DNA of 59,722 nt from Bacteroidota bacterium (GTDB lineage Bacteria; Bacteroidota; Ignavibacteria; Kapaibacteriales; NICIL-2), in contig JAIBAE010000020.1 in the NCBI GenBank assembly GCA_019695345.1, positions 1 to 59,722 of the forward strand, given 5' to 3'. Of the stretch, positions 4,520-57,540 are shown piece after piece. Every line of letters begins with the position of its first letter. The first letter of the stretch is position 1. The position numbers and the translations under genes were made by a program. Below the pieces are notes generated by a model. The model did no database searches and had not been told where the DNA came from. It worked only from the letters and a program-made list of their open reading frames with translations.

Positions 4520-4682
4520 GGAAGTACTCCTGAAATACTAATTATACATGACTCTTCTTAAAAAACGACGCGCAATTTACGGCTATGCACCGTAATAGCA
4601 AAGGAGAATATCAACTATTAACGAAAGAAACTTTTATTTAAAGCTAATTTTTGCAAGCTATCATGTTTCAATATGTTGTGTT

Positions 4683-4735
4683 TACCGCCTCTGCCGAAGC
4701 ATTCCCGCCTGCGCGGCAACGTGTCCGCTCCTACC
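4683..4735 (+). repeat. F2 repeat copy 1
   Basis: Begins CCGCCTCTGCCGAAGC and contains a GCGCGGCAAC block, matching the left half of the F2 family (see 42917 and 52013). It lies in the 434 bp gene-free region between atpC and secD. That region otherwise holds only F2 copy 2, the atpC terminator and a short TTACGG/CCGTAA hairpin near 4570-4592. Confidence 0.5.
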
Positions 4736-7958: not shown

Positions 7959-8018
7959 TTGGCCGGCTCCGCCCGTGTGACGGCGCAGTACGGCTGGCTT
8001 CGGCAGATGAGGGAACCA
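7959..8018 (-). repeat. F2 repeat copy 3
   Basis: GGCCGGCTCCGCCCGTGTGA, then ACGGCGCAGTACGG and a CTTCGGCAGATGAGGGAACC end. This is an inverted full-length F2 copy filling the gap between the permease start and the nhaD stop. Confidence 0.6.
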
Positions 8019-8021
8019 TAA

Positions 8022-15647: not shown

Positions 15648-15882
15648 ATTTTCAAGTATTAGTTATAAAACATAAATAGTTATTTCACATGATTCTCTCA
15701 TGCGGGAGCGAGAAAAGTTTTGTAATTTCCGAGACATCCTCCGTCATAGTATAACATGCAGTATCAGGGCGTATCGCTTTGTACCGTGCAAAGTGTAAGG
15801 CGGTACGCCTGCTGTGTGTTTGTATTGCAATACAACTACGCCAAACTTAAATGCAAATTTTATAGTACGCAATAACCAAAAA

Positions 15883-15914
15883 TCGTACTCATTCTCGTAC
15901 TTATTCTCGTACTA
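15883..15914. repeat. Short tandem repeat, 12-nt unit, about 2.5 copies
   Basis: TCGTACTCATTC, TCGTACTTATTC and TCGTACT in direct succession, ending at the stop codon of the AraC-like gene. The rest of 15648-15911 holds only a GTACCG/CGGTAC inverted repeat near 15780-15810. Confidence 0.6.
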
Positions 15915-16223
15915 CAACAGGACAATATCGTTGCAGTGTTCCTGTAATGCCTTTTTGTATGTGCGGATATTAACATAGCCAACCATGCGGCATGTAAATT
16001 TTTTTTCGCCAAGTGTTGCGCGTAATTCAACTGCTTTTTTGATACGAAAGCAATGTATCAACTTGGCGGTTGTTTTGCCATAGTTTGCCACACAAACCCT
16101 GCATAAATGGCTTTCGGATATACCAAGTATTTCTGCAAGCTGCGTGGCAGTTAGTTGTATATATGCATAATGTTCTTCCAAAGCATTCATAATATCATTG
16201 TGCTCATGTCTGGGTGGTTTCAT
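15912..16223 (-). CDS. Small AraC-like HTH protein
   Basis: 103 residues forming essentially one AraC-type DNA-binding domain. ATQLAEILGISESHLCRVC is the first helix-turn-helix (about 27-46), followed by FRIKKAVELRATLGEK, the linker helix typical of AraC/XylS proteins. The second helix-turn-helix is degenerate: MVGYVNIRTYKKALQEH replaces the usual GFxSxSYFxRxFKK. No ligand-binding or dimerisation domain is present. It may be a stand-alone regulator or a trimmed derivative of a larger one. It is divergent from the DUF2127-like gene and might regulate itself; targets are unknown. Confidence 0.75.
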   Translation of the reverse strand: MKPPRHEHNDIMNALEEHYAYIQLTATQLAEILGISESHLCRVCVANYGKTTAKLIHCFRIKKAVELRATLGEKKFTCRMVGYVNIRTYKKALQEHCNDIVLL

Positions 16224-22076: not shown

Positions 22077-22143
22077 TTCTGCTATCGCAGGACGGCACCG
22101 CTCCAATAACCAAACAACAATCTCAACATGCCGGAGAGAACCT
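22077..22143 (+). repeat. F1 repeat copy 8
   Basis: Starts 2 bp after the stop codon. Left arm CGGCA (22093-22097), right arm TGCCG (22129-22133), then GAGAGAACC. Its right end is shared with the terminator hairpin that follows. Confidence 0.75.
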
Positions 22144-22156: not shown

Positions 22157-22227
22157 GCGCCGCTGTAACGCTCGGCTCCGACCGGGTTGCGGCGCAGTTT
22201 TGTGCGTTTCGGCAGAGGCGGGAAACA
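22157..22227 (-). repeat. F2 repeat copy 4
   Basis: An inverted F2 copy directly after the terminator: GCTCGGCTCCGACCGGGTTG, then TTTCGGCAGAGGCGGGAAAC. Within it GCGCCGC and GCGGCGC form an 8 bp inverted repeat. Confidence 0.65.
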
Positions 22228-22353
22228 AAAAAGTAAAGTATTTTGGATAATAACCGATAAACGTATTAAATACTACATACTGTTTACGGAACGAACAGAA
22301 AATAGCAACGAATTGCCAACGTAGTTAGCAGTACTATTTTTTGGGAGTACACC

Positions 22354-23216: not shown

Positions 23217-23249
23217 ACGTCACTCCGTTTACCAGAGTGGCGTTTTTTT
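23217..23249 (+). terminator. Intrinsic terminator of the carbonic anhydrase gene
   Basis: ACGTCACTC (23217-23225) pairs with GAGTGGCGT (23235-23243) through one wobble, followed by seven T residues. Confidence 0.9.
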
Positions 23250-23330: not shown

Positions 23331-23798
23331 ATGCTTGAACTTAATCATCTGAAAGACTTTGCTATTGTACTGGGTACCATGATTGCGGTATTCAGTTTTA
23401 TAAATGGTATTCTGGAATACTCGCGGCAAGGACGGCAAAAACGCGCCGACCAGTTTGTGTTACTTCGCAGACGACTTAAAGAAAACGACGTGTTTAAACA
23501 CCTAACCGACATGGCACTCCGTAACGACCCAGCCCTTGCCGATTGGCCTGCCGCCGATAAACGCGACCTTTTAGGATTGTTTGAAGAAGTTGCGCTGATG
23601 ATGAACTCTAAGCTTATCCGTAACGAAGTTGCACATTATATGTTTGGCAGTTATGTAATTGCGTGTTATCAATGCGATTACTTTTGGGTGAACTTAGACA
23701 GAAGCGATATGTATTGGAAATTGTTCAACGACTTTGCCGTACAAATGAAATACGTAGAGCAACACTTTGGATACAGCCGTAAAAAGATGAGATTCTAA
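23331..23798 (+). CDS. Membrane-anchored protein of unknown function
   Basis: 155 residues. One membrane segment at residues 9-28 (FAIVLGTMIAVFSFINGIL) is followed by YSRQGRQKRADQFVLLRRRLKEN, a basic helix, and then a cytoplasmic helical domain with several Trp/Tyr residues (YQCDYFWVNLDRSDMYWKLF). The layout resembles DUF4760-like single-pass proteins, but the match is not firm. It stands alone, followed by the gene-free structured region. No function can be assigned. Confidence 0.75.
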   Translation: MLELNHLKDFAIVLGTMIAVFSFINGILEYSRQGRQKRADQFVLLRRRLKENDVFKHLTDMALRNDPALADWPAADKRDLLGLFEEVALMMNSKLIRNEVAHYMFGSYVIACYQCDYFWVNLDRSDMYWKLFNDFAVQMKYVEQHFGYSRKKMRF

Positions 23799-23820
23799 CA
23801 GTTCATTGCCCGATAAAAAA

Positions 23821-23898
23821 AATCCACAGTTGTCACGCTCGTGTAGTGTTGGGTGGCAACACATGCTTAAAAAGCTATGAGCGTGAAAACCGTGGATT
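23821..23898. other. Candidate structured element: 20-bp stem enclosing two hairpins
   Basis: Arms 23821-23840 and 23879-23898 pair at 18 of 20 positions (AATCCACAGT... with ...GTGGATT). They enclose GTGTTG/CAACAC (23846-23862) and GCTT/AAGC (23865-23875) hairpins, giving a three-way junction. It may extend to 23940 through a CCGA/TCGG stem. No coding frame explains it. It could be a small RNA or a mobile-element end. Confidence 0.55.
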
Positions 23899-23982
23899 GA
23901 CCGAAGGGGAGTCCAAATCTCTTATGCTGAATGCCTCGGGTTTTCTCTGGTTGTATTGGTGAAAGGTGAGAAGTGAATATTT

Positions 23983-24017
23983 GTATCTTCCGTGATACGT
24001 AGTACCATCCGTGATAC
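23983..24017 (+). repeat. Direct repeat pair GTATCTTCCGTGATAC / GTACCATCCGTGATAC
   Basis: Two 16-nt units separated by 3 nt and differing at two positions. The first is itself a GTATC/GATAC hairpin. It lies within the 23799-24321 gene-free region. Confidence 0.6.
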
Positions 24018-24061
24018 TGTTCATTTTTCAATTCGGACTCCGCCTGACACTTCTGGAATAA

Positions 24062-24108
24062 TATCAACCATCTTGCCAATTTCCCGCAACTACGCTTTTT
24101 GGTTGATA
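24062..24108. repeat. Inverted repeat TATCAACCA / TGGTTGATA
   Basis: Perfect 9 bp arms (24062-24070 and 24100-24108) around a 29 nt loop. It is the third inverted structure in the same non-coding stretch. Confidence 0.6.
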
Positions 24109-24228
24109 ACTTGCTGCAAACCTTCATAAAACAACGAATTCAGCTTGTGCTGGGGTGTCTCATACTTATTACATTGTCAGGTTTACCTTACAGTTTACTA
24201 TGGAACTTACGGTAGGTTTCCACACTTT

Positions 24229-24294
24229 TTTTTGCTAACGCAAGACCGCACCGAATGGCAGAGTTATAACATACTCACAGCTTGCGGATAAGAA
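24229..24294 (+). repeat. F1 repeat copy 9
   Basis: TTTGCTAACGCAAGACCGCA with left arm 24246-24250, right arm TGCGG (24283-24287). It closes the non-coding region next to the convergent gene at 24322. Confidence 0.75.
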
Positions 24295-24321
24295 TGTCAG
24301 GTTACACTCATACTCATTGAA

Positions 24322-24927
24322 CTAATCACAGGCACCAATATCAATCAAACTTACAGGATTGAAACAGGATCCGTATACAACAAATCCTTTGTGTAACATT
24401 AATCGGATGAAAGCGGTATACACATCGGTATATTTACTTTTGCTATTCGTTTTTACAAATTCGCGCATGATATAGACTCTAAATGAATCTATGTTATACT
24501 TATAGGTGAGGCATTGTTGAATGATTCTTTCTCTATGTAATTGCATTAATTGTTCAACCTTTGACACTTTAGGAAAAGTACGAATTGCATTCAACAACCA
24601 AGTTGTGTTGTTTCCTGTTTGTTCTAGTGAATCTATATTAATGGTATCTTTATGCAATGCATAACTGAATAGATTGTGTTTTGCATCTTCCGGTTTAAGG
24701 TTTAACTTAAACTTTAGATACACCCAAAGTTGAGCAGTAGTTAAATATCCTTCGCTAATAAGACCGCTTTGTTTATAATAAACCAAAACGTATGCAGCAG
24801 ATGTGCCGGCTAAGTGTTTGTTCCATAATTTAATTTTTACTGAATCGCATGGTGTAAATTCGGTCTGCGCCAATACACATTCACAAGATAGTAGTAACAA
24901 GAAGAGTATTATAGAACAGATTCTCAT
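24322..24927 (-). CDS. Exported protein of unknown function
   Basis: 201 residues. The signal peptide is residues 1-20 (MRICSIILFLLLLSCECVLA). The context LLLLSCEC could also be read as a lipobox, so a lipoprotein is possible. The mature part is helical with paired Cys residues (TPCDSVKIK near the start; GSCFNPVSLIDIGAC at the end). No family recognised. It lies in an AT-rich accessory stretch together with the DUF1493-like gene 37 bp upstream on the same strand. Confidence 0.7.
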   Translation of the reverse strand: MRICSIILFLLLLSCECVLAQTEFTPCDSVKIKLWNKHLAGTSAAYVLVYYKQSGLISEGYLTTAQLWVYLKFKLNLKPEDAKHNLFSYALHKDTINIDSLEQTGNNTTWLLNAIRTFPKVSKVEQLMQLHRERIIQQCLTYKYNIDSFRVYIMREFVKTNSKSKYTDVYTAFIRLMLHKGFVVYGSCFNPVSLIDIGACD

Positions 24928-24964
24928 TGTGAGGTATAGTTATTTAGGAAATAAACTAGCATTA

Positions 24965-25384
24965 TCACAAGCATTTATACAACAGGAACACTATAAACAC
25001 ACACATAATTATCAAAGCAATTATTTGGTTAACAAGAATATCGTAGCGCTTGGGTGGTATTGTGTGTTCAGGATAACGAACATTCCACTTTCCCGACTGA
25101 GCGAACTCCAATAACATTGTTGGCGTAATCGGAATGTGAGTAACTCTTTGATCGGGTGTTTTGAAAAATATATTCCCTACACTCATCAATCCCTCTTCGC
25201 TATGATGAAAGTACCAAAGGTATAAACTCATATCCACATTGAACTGCTCGGCGTATTTTTCTATCAAATCGTTAAAGTCATCTCCTGTGCATCCCAAATC
25301 AAGTTCTATATCAGAATCTTTGGCTACCTTACTGCTTTCTGTTTGTTGTGTTATAAAATCAATAATATTGGTAAGGGTGTACAT
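24965..25384 (-). CDS. DUF1493-like protein with C-terminal membrane anchor
   Basis: 139 residues. Residues about 22-60, DSDIELDLGCTGDDFNDLIEKY and FNVDMSLYLWYFHHSEEG, match the pattern of DUF1493 proteins (LGITGDDA...EFLEKYAEEFNVDLS). DUF1493 has no settled function. A single membrane helix at residues 116-136 (NQIIALIIMCVFIVFLLY) would anchor it at the C-terminus. It is probably cotranscribed with the downstream exported protein. Confidence 0.7.
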   Translation of the reverse strand: MYTLTNIIDFITQQTESSKVAKDSDIELDLGCTGDDFNDLIEKYAEQFNVDMSLYLWYFHHSEEGLMSVGNIFFKTPDQRVTHIPITPTMLLEFAQSGKWNVRYPEHTIPPKRYDILVNQIIALIIMCVFIVFLLYKCL

Positions 25385-25450: not shown

Positions 25451-25852
25451 TTACAGAACAGTCCAATCTTCTAACGTTATTCCCTTTATTCGTTTAAAAT
25501 GCTCGGTGTTATTGGTAACCATGGTTATGTTATGGCTTACAGCTGTAACGCCAATAAGTAAGTCGAAGTCATCAATCGGTGTCCCGGATTTTCTTAACCT
25601 TGCTTTCTCTTTTGCATATAATCCAAGAGAGTGGAAAATCGGAATAACTTTTACCCCTGATAAAAAATTATCAAGCACAATTTGATTTTTTTCTTTCTGC
25701 TCACTATTCTCAACACCAAACATTAATTCAGCTAATGTAATCTCCGAAATAAAACAATTCTCGGGGTTTACCTGCTCGAATTTTTCTTTAAGCTTAAATT
25801 TGCCCTTAATGTAATAAACACAAATGTTTGTGTCGATGAGATATTTCTTCAA
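25451..25852 (-). CDS. vapC: PIN-domain toxin of a VapBC-type system
   Basis: 133 residues spanning a complete PIN domain. Acidic active-site residues are Asp7 (YLIDTNICVY), Glu42 (ITLAELMFG) and Asp94/Asp97 (GTPIDDFDLLIGVTA), followed by MVTNNTEHF, the typical VapC C-terminal motif. VapC toxins are metal-dependent ribonucleases, often cutting initiator tRNA or rRNA. The gene overlaps the upstream small gene by 4 bp (ATGA), the usual antitoxin-toxin order. Cutting specificity cannot be inferred. Confidence 0.9.
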   Translation of the reverse strand: MKKYLIDTNICVYYIKGKFKLKEKFEQVNPENCFISEITLAELMFGVENSEQKEKNQIVLDNFLSGVKVIPIFHSLGLYAKEKARLRKSGTPIDDFDLLIGVTAVSHNITMVTNNTEHFKRIKGITLEDWTVL

Positions 25853-26094
25853 AGTTCTTCAATGTGTCGGTTAAAAGTTCTGCTATTTCGAATATCGGTA
25901 ATAAGTTGGTCCGCAGACTGCTCAGAATCCCAAGCTCCATATGCTTTATAAAATGAATTCTTTTTTTCCGAAATATCTGTTTTAACAGAGAGTGTTAACT
26001 TGGAGATGAGATCGAGTTTATTACTTGGACTTAAATTATCAAGTAACCGCAAATACCCATCAACCAGAGTGGTGTTGATATCAATGGCTTTCAT
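25849..26094 (-). CDS. Putative antitoxin paired with the PIN toxin
   Basis: 81 residues from ATG 26094, chosen because AGGAG lies just upstream (an earlier frame start at 26121 lies inside the operator). The sequence is helical: DGYLRLLDNLSPSNKLDLISKLTLSVK, then an acidic tail ending NRHIEEL. It does not show an obvious AbrB-, ribbon-helix-helix or Phd fold, so the antitoxin family is not recognised. Position, size and the 4 bp overlap with the toxin support the role. It would bind and neutralise the toxin. Confidence 0.7.
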   Translation of the reverse strand: MKAIDINTTLVDGYLRLLDNLSPSNKLDLISKLTLSVKTDISEKKNSFYKAYGAWDSEQSADQLITDIRNSRTFNRHIEEL

Positions 26095-26112
26095 AGTTCT
26101 CCTGTTATTATC

Positions 26113-26152
26113 ACTACACAAATGTAGTAAAAAGTACGGTTATTACAAGTTG
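26113..26152 (-). promoter_or_regulatory. Promoter with overlapping operator of the PIN toxin-antitoxin operon
   Basis: On the minus strand TTG is followed by 19 nt and TACATTTG (26126-26119), a good Bacteroidota-type promoter. The inverted repeat ACTAC (26113-26117) / GTAGT (26124-26128) surrounds the -7 box, as expected for autorepression. Confidence 0.55.
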
Positions 26153-39118: not shown

Positions 39119-39136
39119 CCACTACACAACACCATT

Positions 39137-39163
39137 CGTAGCGACGCGATGCCTCGTGTCGGA
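39137..39163. repeat. F3 palindromic repeat copy 3
   Basis: CGTAGCGACGCGATGCCTCG followed by TGTCGG, matching the F3 core at 801. Confidence 0.55.
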
Positions 39164-39299
39164 ACACGTAAAAAGATACCTCCACAGAATGATAACAGAT
39201 CTTATGCCTACAAAGTTGATATGTAATTCCATCTTGGTTATTAAACCCAAAATGTGTAATTAGCGCACAACAGAACTCTTGCACTACACAGGCAATACC

Positions 39300-41995: not shown

Positions 41996-42907
41996 ATGGT
42001 TGATATTACCGGTAAAATTAAAACGCACAGAATTGCCATTGCACAAGCGGTGGTGCAGGTTAGTTCGCAGGATACCATTGATGCAATTATCAATAAAACT
42101 GTTCCCAAAGGCGATGTGTTTGAGGCAAGCCGCATTGCGGGATTGTTTGGCGTTAAACGTACAAGCGATATCATTCCCGATTGCCATCCGTTGCCCGTTG
42201 AGTTCACGCAGATTACCCACAGCATAGATGGCTTACACATCATTGCCCAGGTAGAAGTCCATACCATTTACCGAACAGGTGTGGAAGTAGAAGCAATGCA
42301 CGGGGCTTCGGTTGTTGCGCTTACTATGTACGATATGCTAAAACCTATTGATAAAGAAATAGAAATAACAAGCATCAAACTTGTGAAAAAGAAAGGCGGA
42401 AAATCGGCGTTTACCGATAGACCAAAACGCGATATTACTGCCGCTGTTGTTGTGTGTTCCGATAGTATTTCGGCAGGCAAAAAACAAGACTTTGCCGGTA
42501 AAGCAATTGTTGCCAAGTTAGAGAACCTAAAAGTTACCGTAAGCGAGTACACTATCATCCCCGACGAAGTAACCGATATCCAACAAACGCTGCAACGGTT
42601 GTGTGCCGCACAAACCGACCTTGTTATTTACACCGGTGGTACGGGTCTTTCGCCACGTGATGTAACCCCCGAAGCAATACGTCCGCTTCTGCACCGCGAG
42701 ATTCCCGGCATAGCCGAAGCCATGCGCAGTTACGGACAAGAACACATGCCGTATGCAATGCTTTCGCGTAGTGTTGCAGGTCTCATTGATAACACGCTTG
42801 TGCTTGCACTTCCGGGTTCAACACGCGGCGCGCAGGAAAGCATGGATGCGCTGTTTCCGTACCTTCTGCATTTGTTCAGGGTAATGGAACAAACACCGCA
42901 CGAGTAG
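41996..42907 (+). CDS. moaCB: Bifunctional MoaC-MoaB molybdenum cofactor biosynthesis fusion
   Basis: 303 residues. Residues 1-145 are MoaC (cyclic pyranopterin monophosphate synthase): MVDITGK, IPDCHPLPVEF and YRTGVEVEAMHGASVVALTMYD. After a short linker (KKGGKSAFTDRPKR), residues 150-303 are MoaB/MogA-like (molybdopterin adenylyltransferase type): AVVVCSDSISAGKKQD, VIYTGGTGLSPRDVTPEA and LVLALPGSTRGAQESM. The fusion would join an early and a late or auxiliary step of Moco synthesis in one cytoplasmic polypeptide. MoaCB fusions are known in Bacteroidota-related and some other bacteria. No other moa or moe genes are close by. Confidence 0.93.
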   Translation: MVDITGKIKTHRIAIAQAVVQVSSQDTIDAIINKTVPKGDVFEASRIAGLFGVKRTSDIIPDCHPLPVEFTQITHSIDGLHIIAQVEVHTIYRTGVEVEAMHGASVVALTMYDMLKPIDKEIEITSIKLVKKKGGKSAFTDRPKRDITAAVVVCSDSISAGKKQDFAGKAIVAKLENLKVTVSEYTIIPDEVTDIQQTLQRLCAAQTDLVIYTGGTGLSPRDVTPEAIRPLLHREIPGIAEAMRSYGQEHMPYAMLSRSVAGLIDNTLVLALPGSTRGAQESMDALFPYLLHLFRVMEQTPHE

Positions 42908-42916
42908 TATTATTAT

Positions 42917-42984
42917 GTTCCCCGCCTCTGCCGAAGCAACGCTTTAGCGCGCCAACCCGGTGCGAGCCAAACGTTCTGCGTCGC
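42917..42984 (+). repeat. F2 repeat copy 5
   Basis: TTCCCCGCCTCTGCCGAAGC, then CGCCAACCCGGTGCGAGCC and AACGTTCTGCGTCGC. It is a near-complete family member, 10 bp after the moaCB stop. Confidence 0.7.
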
Positions 42985-51923: not shown

Positions 51924-52012
51924 TATTACTGTATATTTACACGTATGTGTGGTATAACGCATACGCAGGGAAATAGGGTGGCAGAAATGCTACCCTATAT
52001 TTTTTGTAGACA

Positions 52013-52085
52013 TGTTTCCCTCCTCTGCCGAAGCAACCCAAACTGCGCGCCAACCCTGTGCGAACCGAACGTTCTACTTCGCGGA
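52013..52085 (+). repeat. F2 repeat copy 6
   Basis: GTTTCCCTCCTCTGCCGAAGC, then GCGCCAACCCTGTGCGAACC and GAACGTTCTACTTCGCGG. It has the same block order as copy 5. Confidence 0.65.
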
Positions 52086-57339: not shown

Positions 57340-57408
57340 TAAAAGATTGCTCAGCATTTTAGAGGTAACTTCTTTTTTGATTCTGCAAACTTTGCTTATT
57401 TACCTGTT

Positions 57409-57434
57409 TCGACGCGAGGCATCGCGTCGCTACG
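57409..57434. repeat. F3 palindromic repeat copy 4
   Basis: TTTCGACGCGAGGCATCGCG followed by TCGCTACGAAA, near-palindromic with the F3 core. The 57340-57659 gene-free region holds only this, F1 copy 22 and the icd terminator. Confidence 0.6.
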
Positions 57435-57540
57435 AAAAAATTAAACTTCTACAATTGATTGTCTCTACATCATTACCATATTACATTTCAGAGTAGTAAG
57501 TAAGTTCCTTCACGATACACGTAATTACCTTTGGCATACC

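Follow-up and report, generated by a model that had tools for sequence, protein, structure and literature searches.

A long branched hairpin, probably a Rho-independent terminator, between convergent genes of a Kapaibacteriales genome

A long convergent spacer downstream of vapBC

We analysed a window of 59,722 nt (contig JAIBAE010000020.1) from the genome of a bacterium of the order Kapaibacteriales, and within it a non-coding spacer of 523 nt between convergent genes. The spacer starts directly after the stop codon of a DUF4760-like gene on the left and its last base abuts the stop codon of an orphan gene on the right. Genome-wide statistics, here and below, were computed on an 854-kb sample that makes up 19% of the 4.56-Mb, 163-contig genome. 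Convergent spacers in this sample have a median length of 147 nt and 9 of 93 reach 520 nt or more, making this one long, not extreme. The spacer and the genes on its two sides are as follows.

23331 to 23798, plus strand: DUF4760-like gene, open reading frame of 155 aa, left convergent neighbour (Pfam DUF4760, E 0.0021, below the cut-off)
23799 to 24321: non-coding spacer
24322 to 24927, minus strand: orphan gene, open reading frame of 201 aa, right convergent neighbour
24965 to 25384, minus strand: DUF1493 gene (Pfam PF07377, E 1.6e-9), part of a minus-strand run with the orphan gene
25451 to 25852, minus strand: VapC gene with a PIN domain (NCBIfam VapC NF047863, E 4.4e-44)
25849 to 26121, minus strand: presumed VapB gene, assigned from its position and its overlap with vapC only; vapBC opens the minus-strand run

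The DUF4760-like gene has orthologs at 73% and 54% identity in two compared genomes of the order, the former a Candidatus Kapaibacterium MAG. Genomes G002 and G023 retain the DUF4760 gene, but with a different sequence downstream of it and no shared spacer. For the 201-aa orphan gene, Pfam, PADLOC and NCBIfam searches returned no match, and 122 other genomes of the order yielded no ortholog and just two marginal partial matches. Lying beside vapBC, the orphan gene and the DUF1493 gene (24322-25384) look like an accessory cluster. PADLOC gave no match in eight neighbouring genes, on which ground the idea of a retron or defence system was dropped, and the scanned genes around the hairpin described below include no transposase or integrase.

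By codon log-odds, none of the frames of 23799-24321 looks coding, as the earlier note, which had called the region gene-free, had judged from the reading frames; a lone 120-nt minus-strand window (24060-24179) reaches 0.23 in a frame that is not open. A pseudogene was rejected on the same statistic.

One exceptional structure in the spacer

The earlier note had described the region as packed with inverted repeats. We find that the spacer holds one significant structure, a branched hairpin at 23821-23898, and not many; the structures and repeats concerned are listed below.

23815 to 23822, minus strand: T8 (A8 on the plus strand), seen in the sequence and in a terminator-type scan, giving a U-tract directly after the stem, with two of its eight bases inside the stem and six unpaired
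23821 to 23898, minus strand: branched hairpin of 78 nt with arms 23821-23840 and 23879-23898, a proposed Rho-independent terminator
About 23846 to 23862: inner hairpin 1 of the fold, 6 bp with a 5-nt loop
About 23865 to 23875: inner hairpin 2 of the fold, 4 bp
23983 to 23998 and 24002 to 24017: direct repeat, two copies of GTAYCWTCCGTGATAC
24062 to 24070 and 24100 to 24108: perfect 9-bp inverted repeat
24226 to 24294, minus strand: a copy of the dispersed repeat F1, made up of TTCTTATCCGCA (24294-24283), a variable spacer, and GGTGCGGTCTTGCGTTAGCA (from 24252 downward) with an A-run

The outer stem (23821-23840/23879-23898) has 20 positions, 18 of them Watson-Crick pairs, exactly as described earlier, and the three-way junction that it forms with the two enclosed hairpins, likewise part of that description, appears in the MFE and centroid folds alike. 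In minus-strand RNA 19 of the 20 positions can pair, one A.C mismatch becoming a G.U pair on that strand only. The apex is branched and 38 nt in size, and the foot, AATCCAC, is A/U-rich. The minus-strand RNA of 23815-23900 folds at -36.4 kcal/mol (z -8.1), the plus-strand RNA of the hairpin at -37.0 kcal/mol (z -7.2), and the hairpin folded as single-stranded DNA has a z of -6.5. An ungapped scan of the 854 kb found seven inverted repeats this strong, six of them intergenic, versus zero to two in each of eight shuffles, and a comparable inverted repeat arose in 1 of 2,000 shuffles of the 523-nt region. The hairpin is the one exceptional feature of the spacer, far beyond chance.

The lesser repeats fare differently. 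The direct repeat pair is real, and we propose no function for it; its equal occurs in 5 of 2,000 shuffles and in 6 of 114 real spacers of at least 300 nt, which makes it mildly unusual only. The perfect 9-bp inverted repeat is present as reported, and within chance (193 of 2,000 shuffles; 27 of the same 114 spacers), while the CCGA/TCGG closure, previously read as a possible further hairpin, comprises 4 bp and does not rise above chance. With the main hairpin removed, the remaining 422 nt fold at chance level (z -1.76), so that the proposal of a structured RNA holds for the 78-nt hairpin and not for the rest of the region.

Searches for known RNAs and for homologs were negative throughout. 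Rfam gave no match in the whole window at the gathering threshold, consistent with the earlier judgement that the region does not fit tmRNA, RNase P, SRP or 6S RNA; at permissive settings the best sub-threshold matches were two miRNA models (E 0.36 and 2.4), nothing meaningful, and a tRNA/tmRNA search found none. BLASTN of the spacer against its own genome returned, besides itself, F1 matches only; against the 40 closest genomes it gave short chance-level matches and no homolog, and against plasmid and phage collections nothing. A covariance model of the hairpin, run on its own genome and 20 relatives, found itself only. Of the checks proposed in the earlier note, the Rfam search thus gave no family and the search for the same sequence elsewhere in the genome no second copy of the hairpin, while for covariance no relative, among the 20, carries it.

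The dispersed repeat F1

The F1 copy reported in the spacer is genuine, and belongs to a bipartite family with the consensus TTCTTTCC[C/G]GCA, followed in most copies by 28-31 variable bases and then by GGTGC[G/C]GTCNNGCG[A/T]TAGCAAAA. The genome contains at least 509 copies with no more than one mismatch to the core, shared almost equally between the strands (257 and 252), and those in the window lie at 716-736, 1026-1046, 22079-22099, 24232-24252 and 12 further places. Outside this genome F1 is all but absent: 40 relatives and IMG/VR have no copy, and among 293 other genomes of the class there is a single stray match. Classified copies in the 854-kb sample are mostly intergenic (152/173), and where an antisense gene lies past the A-run, 58 of 98 copies are separated from its stop codon by no more than 12 nt, in most cases by 5-8 nt. 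The variable bases of the left and right halves form a Watson-Crick or G.U pair in 97% of cases (C-G 82, G-C 66 and T-A 9 of 162), with a mutual information of 1.09 bits and 0.20 for the next best pair of positions. Gene ends with F1 within 20 nt have an intrinsic, hairpin-plus-T terminator in 3 of 50 cases, versus 55 of 243 other ends in the same sample; because F1-bearing ends so rarely have such a terminator, F1 may itself serve to end transcripts or to protect them.

F1 resembles REP elements in its high copy number, its intergenic location, often downstream of genes, and its base-paired, hairpin-forming arms. REP elements fall into GTAG and CGTC superfamilies and bear an unpaired tag at one end, with loops listed at 2-20 nt (PMC3733652). 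In contrast, neither tag is a constant part of the F1 consensus, the F1 loop of 28-33 nt is longer than the 2-20 nt listed there, and around the RAYT-type gene that we examined lies a different repeat. F1 copies do lie on both sides of this Y1 gene, on contig C123, one of them at the stop codon of a neighbour, which made a RAYT look promising as the mobiliser of F1; the gene carries different repeat arrays of its own, however, and we set the candidate aside.

Several other repeats were observed alongside F1. The RAYT/IS200-type Y1 transposase gene of contig C123 has GCTACGGAGTAGC / GCTCCGATGGAGC hairpin arrays on two sides (L071 1250-1400 and 1950-2230) and is a candidate REPtron. A dispersed inverted repeat of GACGCGAGGCATCGCGTCGCTACG type occurs in the window at 39135-39172 and 57399-57436 and in L036 at 15882-15981, where a close inverted pair of this type forms the strongest inverted repeat of the 854-kb sample. 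A further dispersed family, around CCGCCTCTGCCGAAGC, has copies about 75-92% similar at 4676-4720, 7983-8021, 22186-22230, 42898-42940 and 52012-52082 of the window.

Transcription termination and competing readings

On both strands of the 854-kb sample we looked for T-runs with a hairpin in front of them, whatever the size of its apex. The genome uses hairpin-plus-T terminators: among sites whose hairpins are no longer than 50 nt, 86 have a stop codon at most 300 nt upstream, and for 51 of these the distance is 40-59 nt, a peak that is absent before start codons. Near the spacer, the plus-strand carbonic anhydrase and OmpA genes have textbook terminators at 23243 and 22149. The hairpin at 23821-23898 ranks second in stability among 324 intergenic hairpin-plus-T sites, and first, by a margin of 9 kcal/mol, among the 159 with at least seven T in eight. 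A run of at least six T in eight lies within 0-2 nt of 3.4% of intergenic positions per strand, and the chance of a T-run no more than 2 nt from the stem on either strand is roughly 7%. Between 22000 and 27000 the hairpin is the sole minus-strand site of the scan outside open reading frames, so the four-gene minus-strand run has no other candidate terminator behind it. On the plus strand, the T8 at 24226 follows a weak fold (z -0.74), and we claim no terminator there.

Given its stability, its T-run, the convergent layout, a scan that shows no minus-strand terminator closer to the genes, and the genome's use of hairpin-plus-T terminators, we consider that the hairpin is most likely a Rho-independent terminator, unusually long, which would act on minus-strand transcription. 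Nothing more elaborate is favoured, because the spacer has no coding signal, Rfam match or homolog. As in known Rho-independent terminators, a stable stem is followed immediately by a U-tract, and the element lies past the last gene of a minus-strand run, with a convergent gene facing it. Several features nevertheless count against this assignment. At 78 nt and -36 kcal/mol, as against 19-29 nt and about -12.7 kcal/mol, the hairpin exceeds its textbook neighbours three- to fourfold in length and about threefold in stability; four minus-strand genes precede it, but the last of their stop codons is about 500 nt away, against a mode of 40-59 nt in the genome; and it has a branched apex and an A/U-rich foot in place of the short 3-8-nt loop and G+C-rich foot that are usual, although not obligatory, so that a standard pattern scan limited to 3-8-nt loops does not detect it. 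The hairpin is absent from the relatives, which leaves no covariation to draw on.

Termination at the hairpin might proceed as follows. The vapBC, DUF1493 and 201-aa genes would be transcribed as one unit, and RNA polymerase would read through about 500 nt of 3' UTR, including the F1 copy, to reach the hairpin. In the nascent RNA the two inner hairpins would fold first, and the 20-bp outer stem would then close while the eight U are made. The complex would fall apart before antisense transcription could enter the DUF4760 gene and, beyond it, the carbonic anhydrase gene.

The same hairpin and U-tract could also form the 3' end, both terminator and stability element, of an independent minus-strand sRNA of up to about 500 nt, or of one released by processing of the 201-aa gene's 3' UTR, and we regard this as rather unlikely. 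The structure far exceeds the stability that an ordinary terminator requires, 500 non-coding nt precede it on the same strand, and, as in bacterial sRNAs of either origin, a non-coding stretch ends in a strong hairpin and a U-tract. TAnnTTTG promoter boxes are more frequent upstream of genes in this genome than in the control (110 versus 49), and TAAGTTTG on the minus strand at 24353 conforms to this pattern, yet the control leads us to expect about 0.8 such boxes by chance in the stretch scanned, and the one at 24353 has no TTTG upstream at the usual spacing and is no convincing promoter. The 422 nt upstream of the hairpin fold at the chance level given above (folded as the plus strand), and, unlike bacterial sRNAs, the stretch has no Rfam family, convincing promoter or conservation, relatives included. 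A particular form of the idea, in which minus-strand 24339-23815 would be an unknown, lineage-specific sRNA from the region downstream of the vapBC-DUF1493-orphan run, with the branched hairpin as its 3' half and the F1 repeat inside, seems to us quite unlikely; the earlier note's suggestion of an unknown ncRNA found no positive support in the form of an Rfam match, a homolog, a second copy or a promoter.

Two other readings concern the origin of the hairpin and a possible function as DNA. F1 copies normally keep to 5-8 nt from the stop codon of the neighbouring gene on their A-run side; here 430 bp separate the A-run from the DUF4760 stop codon, and this segment, hairpin included, may therefore have arrived later as an insertion, or may be a decayed gene or element of which the hairpin is a relic. 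The copy at 24226-24294 is indeed an outlier, at 435 nt from that stop codon and one of 9 in 98 beyond 300 nt, and the segment is flanked by A8 at 23815 and T8 at 24226. We nonetheless judge a late arrival or decay improbable, as the segment is non-coding in every frame, occurs once in the genome, matches no plasmid or phage, and shows neither a terminal inverted repeat beyond poly-A/T nor an obvious target-site duplication, and no syntenic empty site was found in a relative. That the hairpin acts as DNA, whether as a cruciform or as a single-stranded recombination or transposition site (REP, IS200/IS605 end or attC site), is highly improbable, although it folds well as DNA and the genome has Y1 (IS200/RAYT-type) transposase genes: it is single copy, its foot lacks GTTRRRY/RYYYAAC, the scanned genes around it are free of transposases and integrases, and the intact RAYT-type gene of contig C123 has GCTCCGATGGAGC-type arrays of its own on its flanks, not this hairpin. 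An integron attC site was specifically rejected (GTTGGGT occurs apically only and the core sites are absent at the foot), as was a mobile element or MITE (one copy by BLAST and covariance model, no target-site duplication seen at the stem ends). The earlier idea of a mobile-element remnant accordingly finds no support for the hairpin, which also has no transposase or coding remnant, but is partly right for the right end of the spacer, where F1 is a high-copy dispersed repeat.

If the hairpin is a terminator, as we think most likely, terminators in this genome can be long and branched, and scanners with a limited loop size miss them. Taken alone the hairpin matters little: it is a probable stop signal that would explain a striking intergenic sequence between convergent genes. 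F1 is the more interesting element, being structured and present in high copy number, confined to this genome among those searched, strictly covarying, and fixed in its place beside stop codons.
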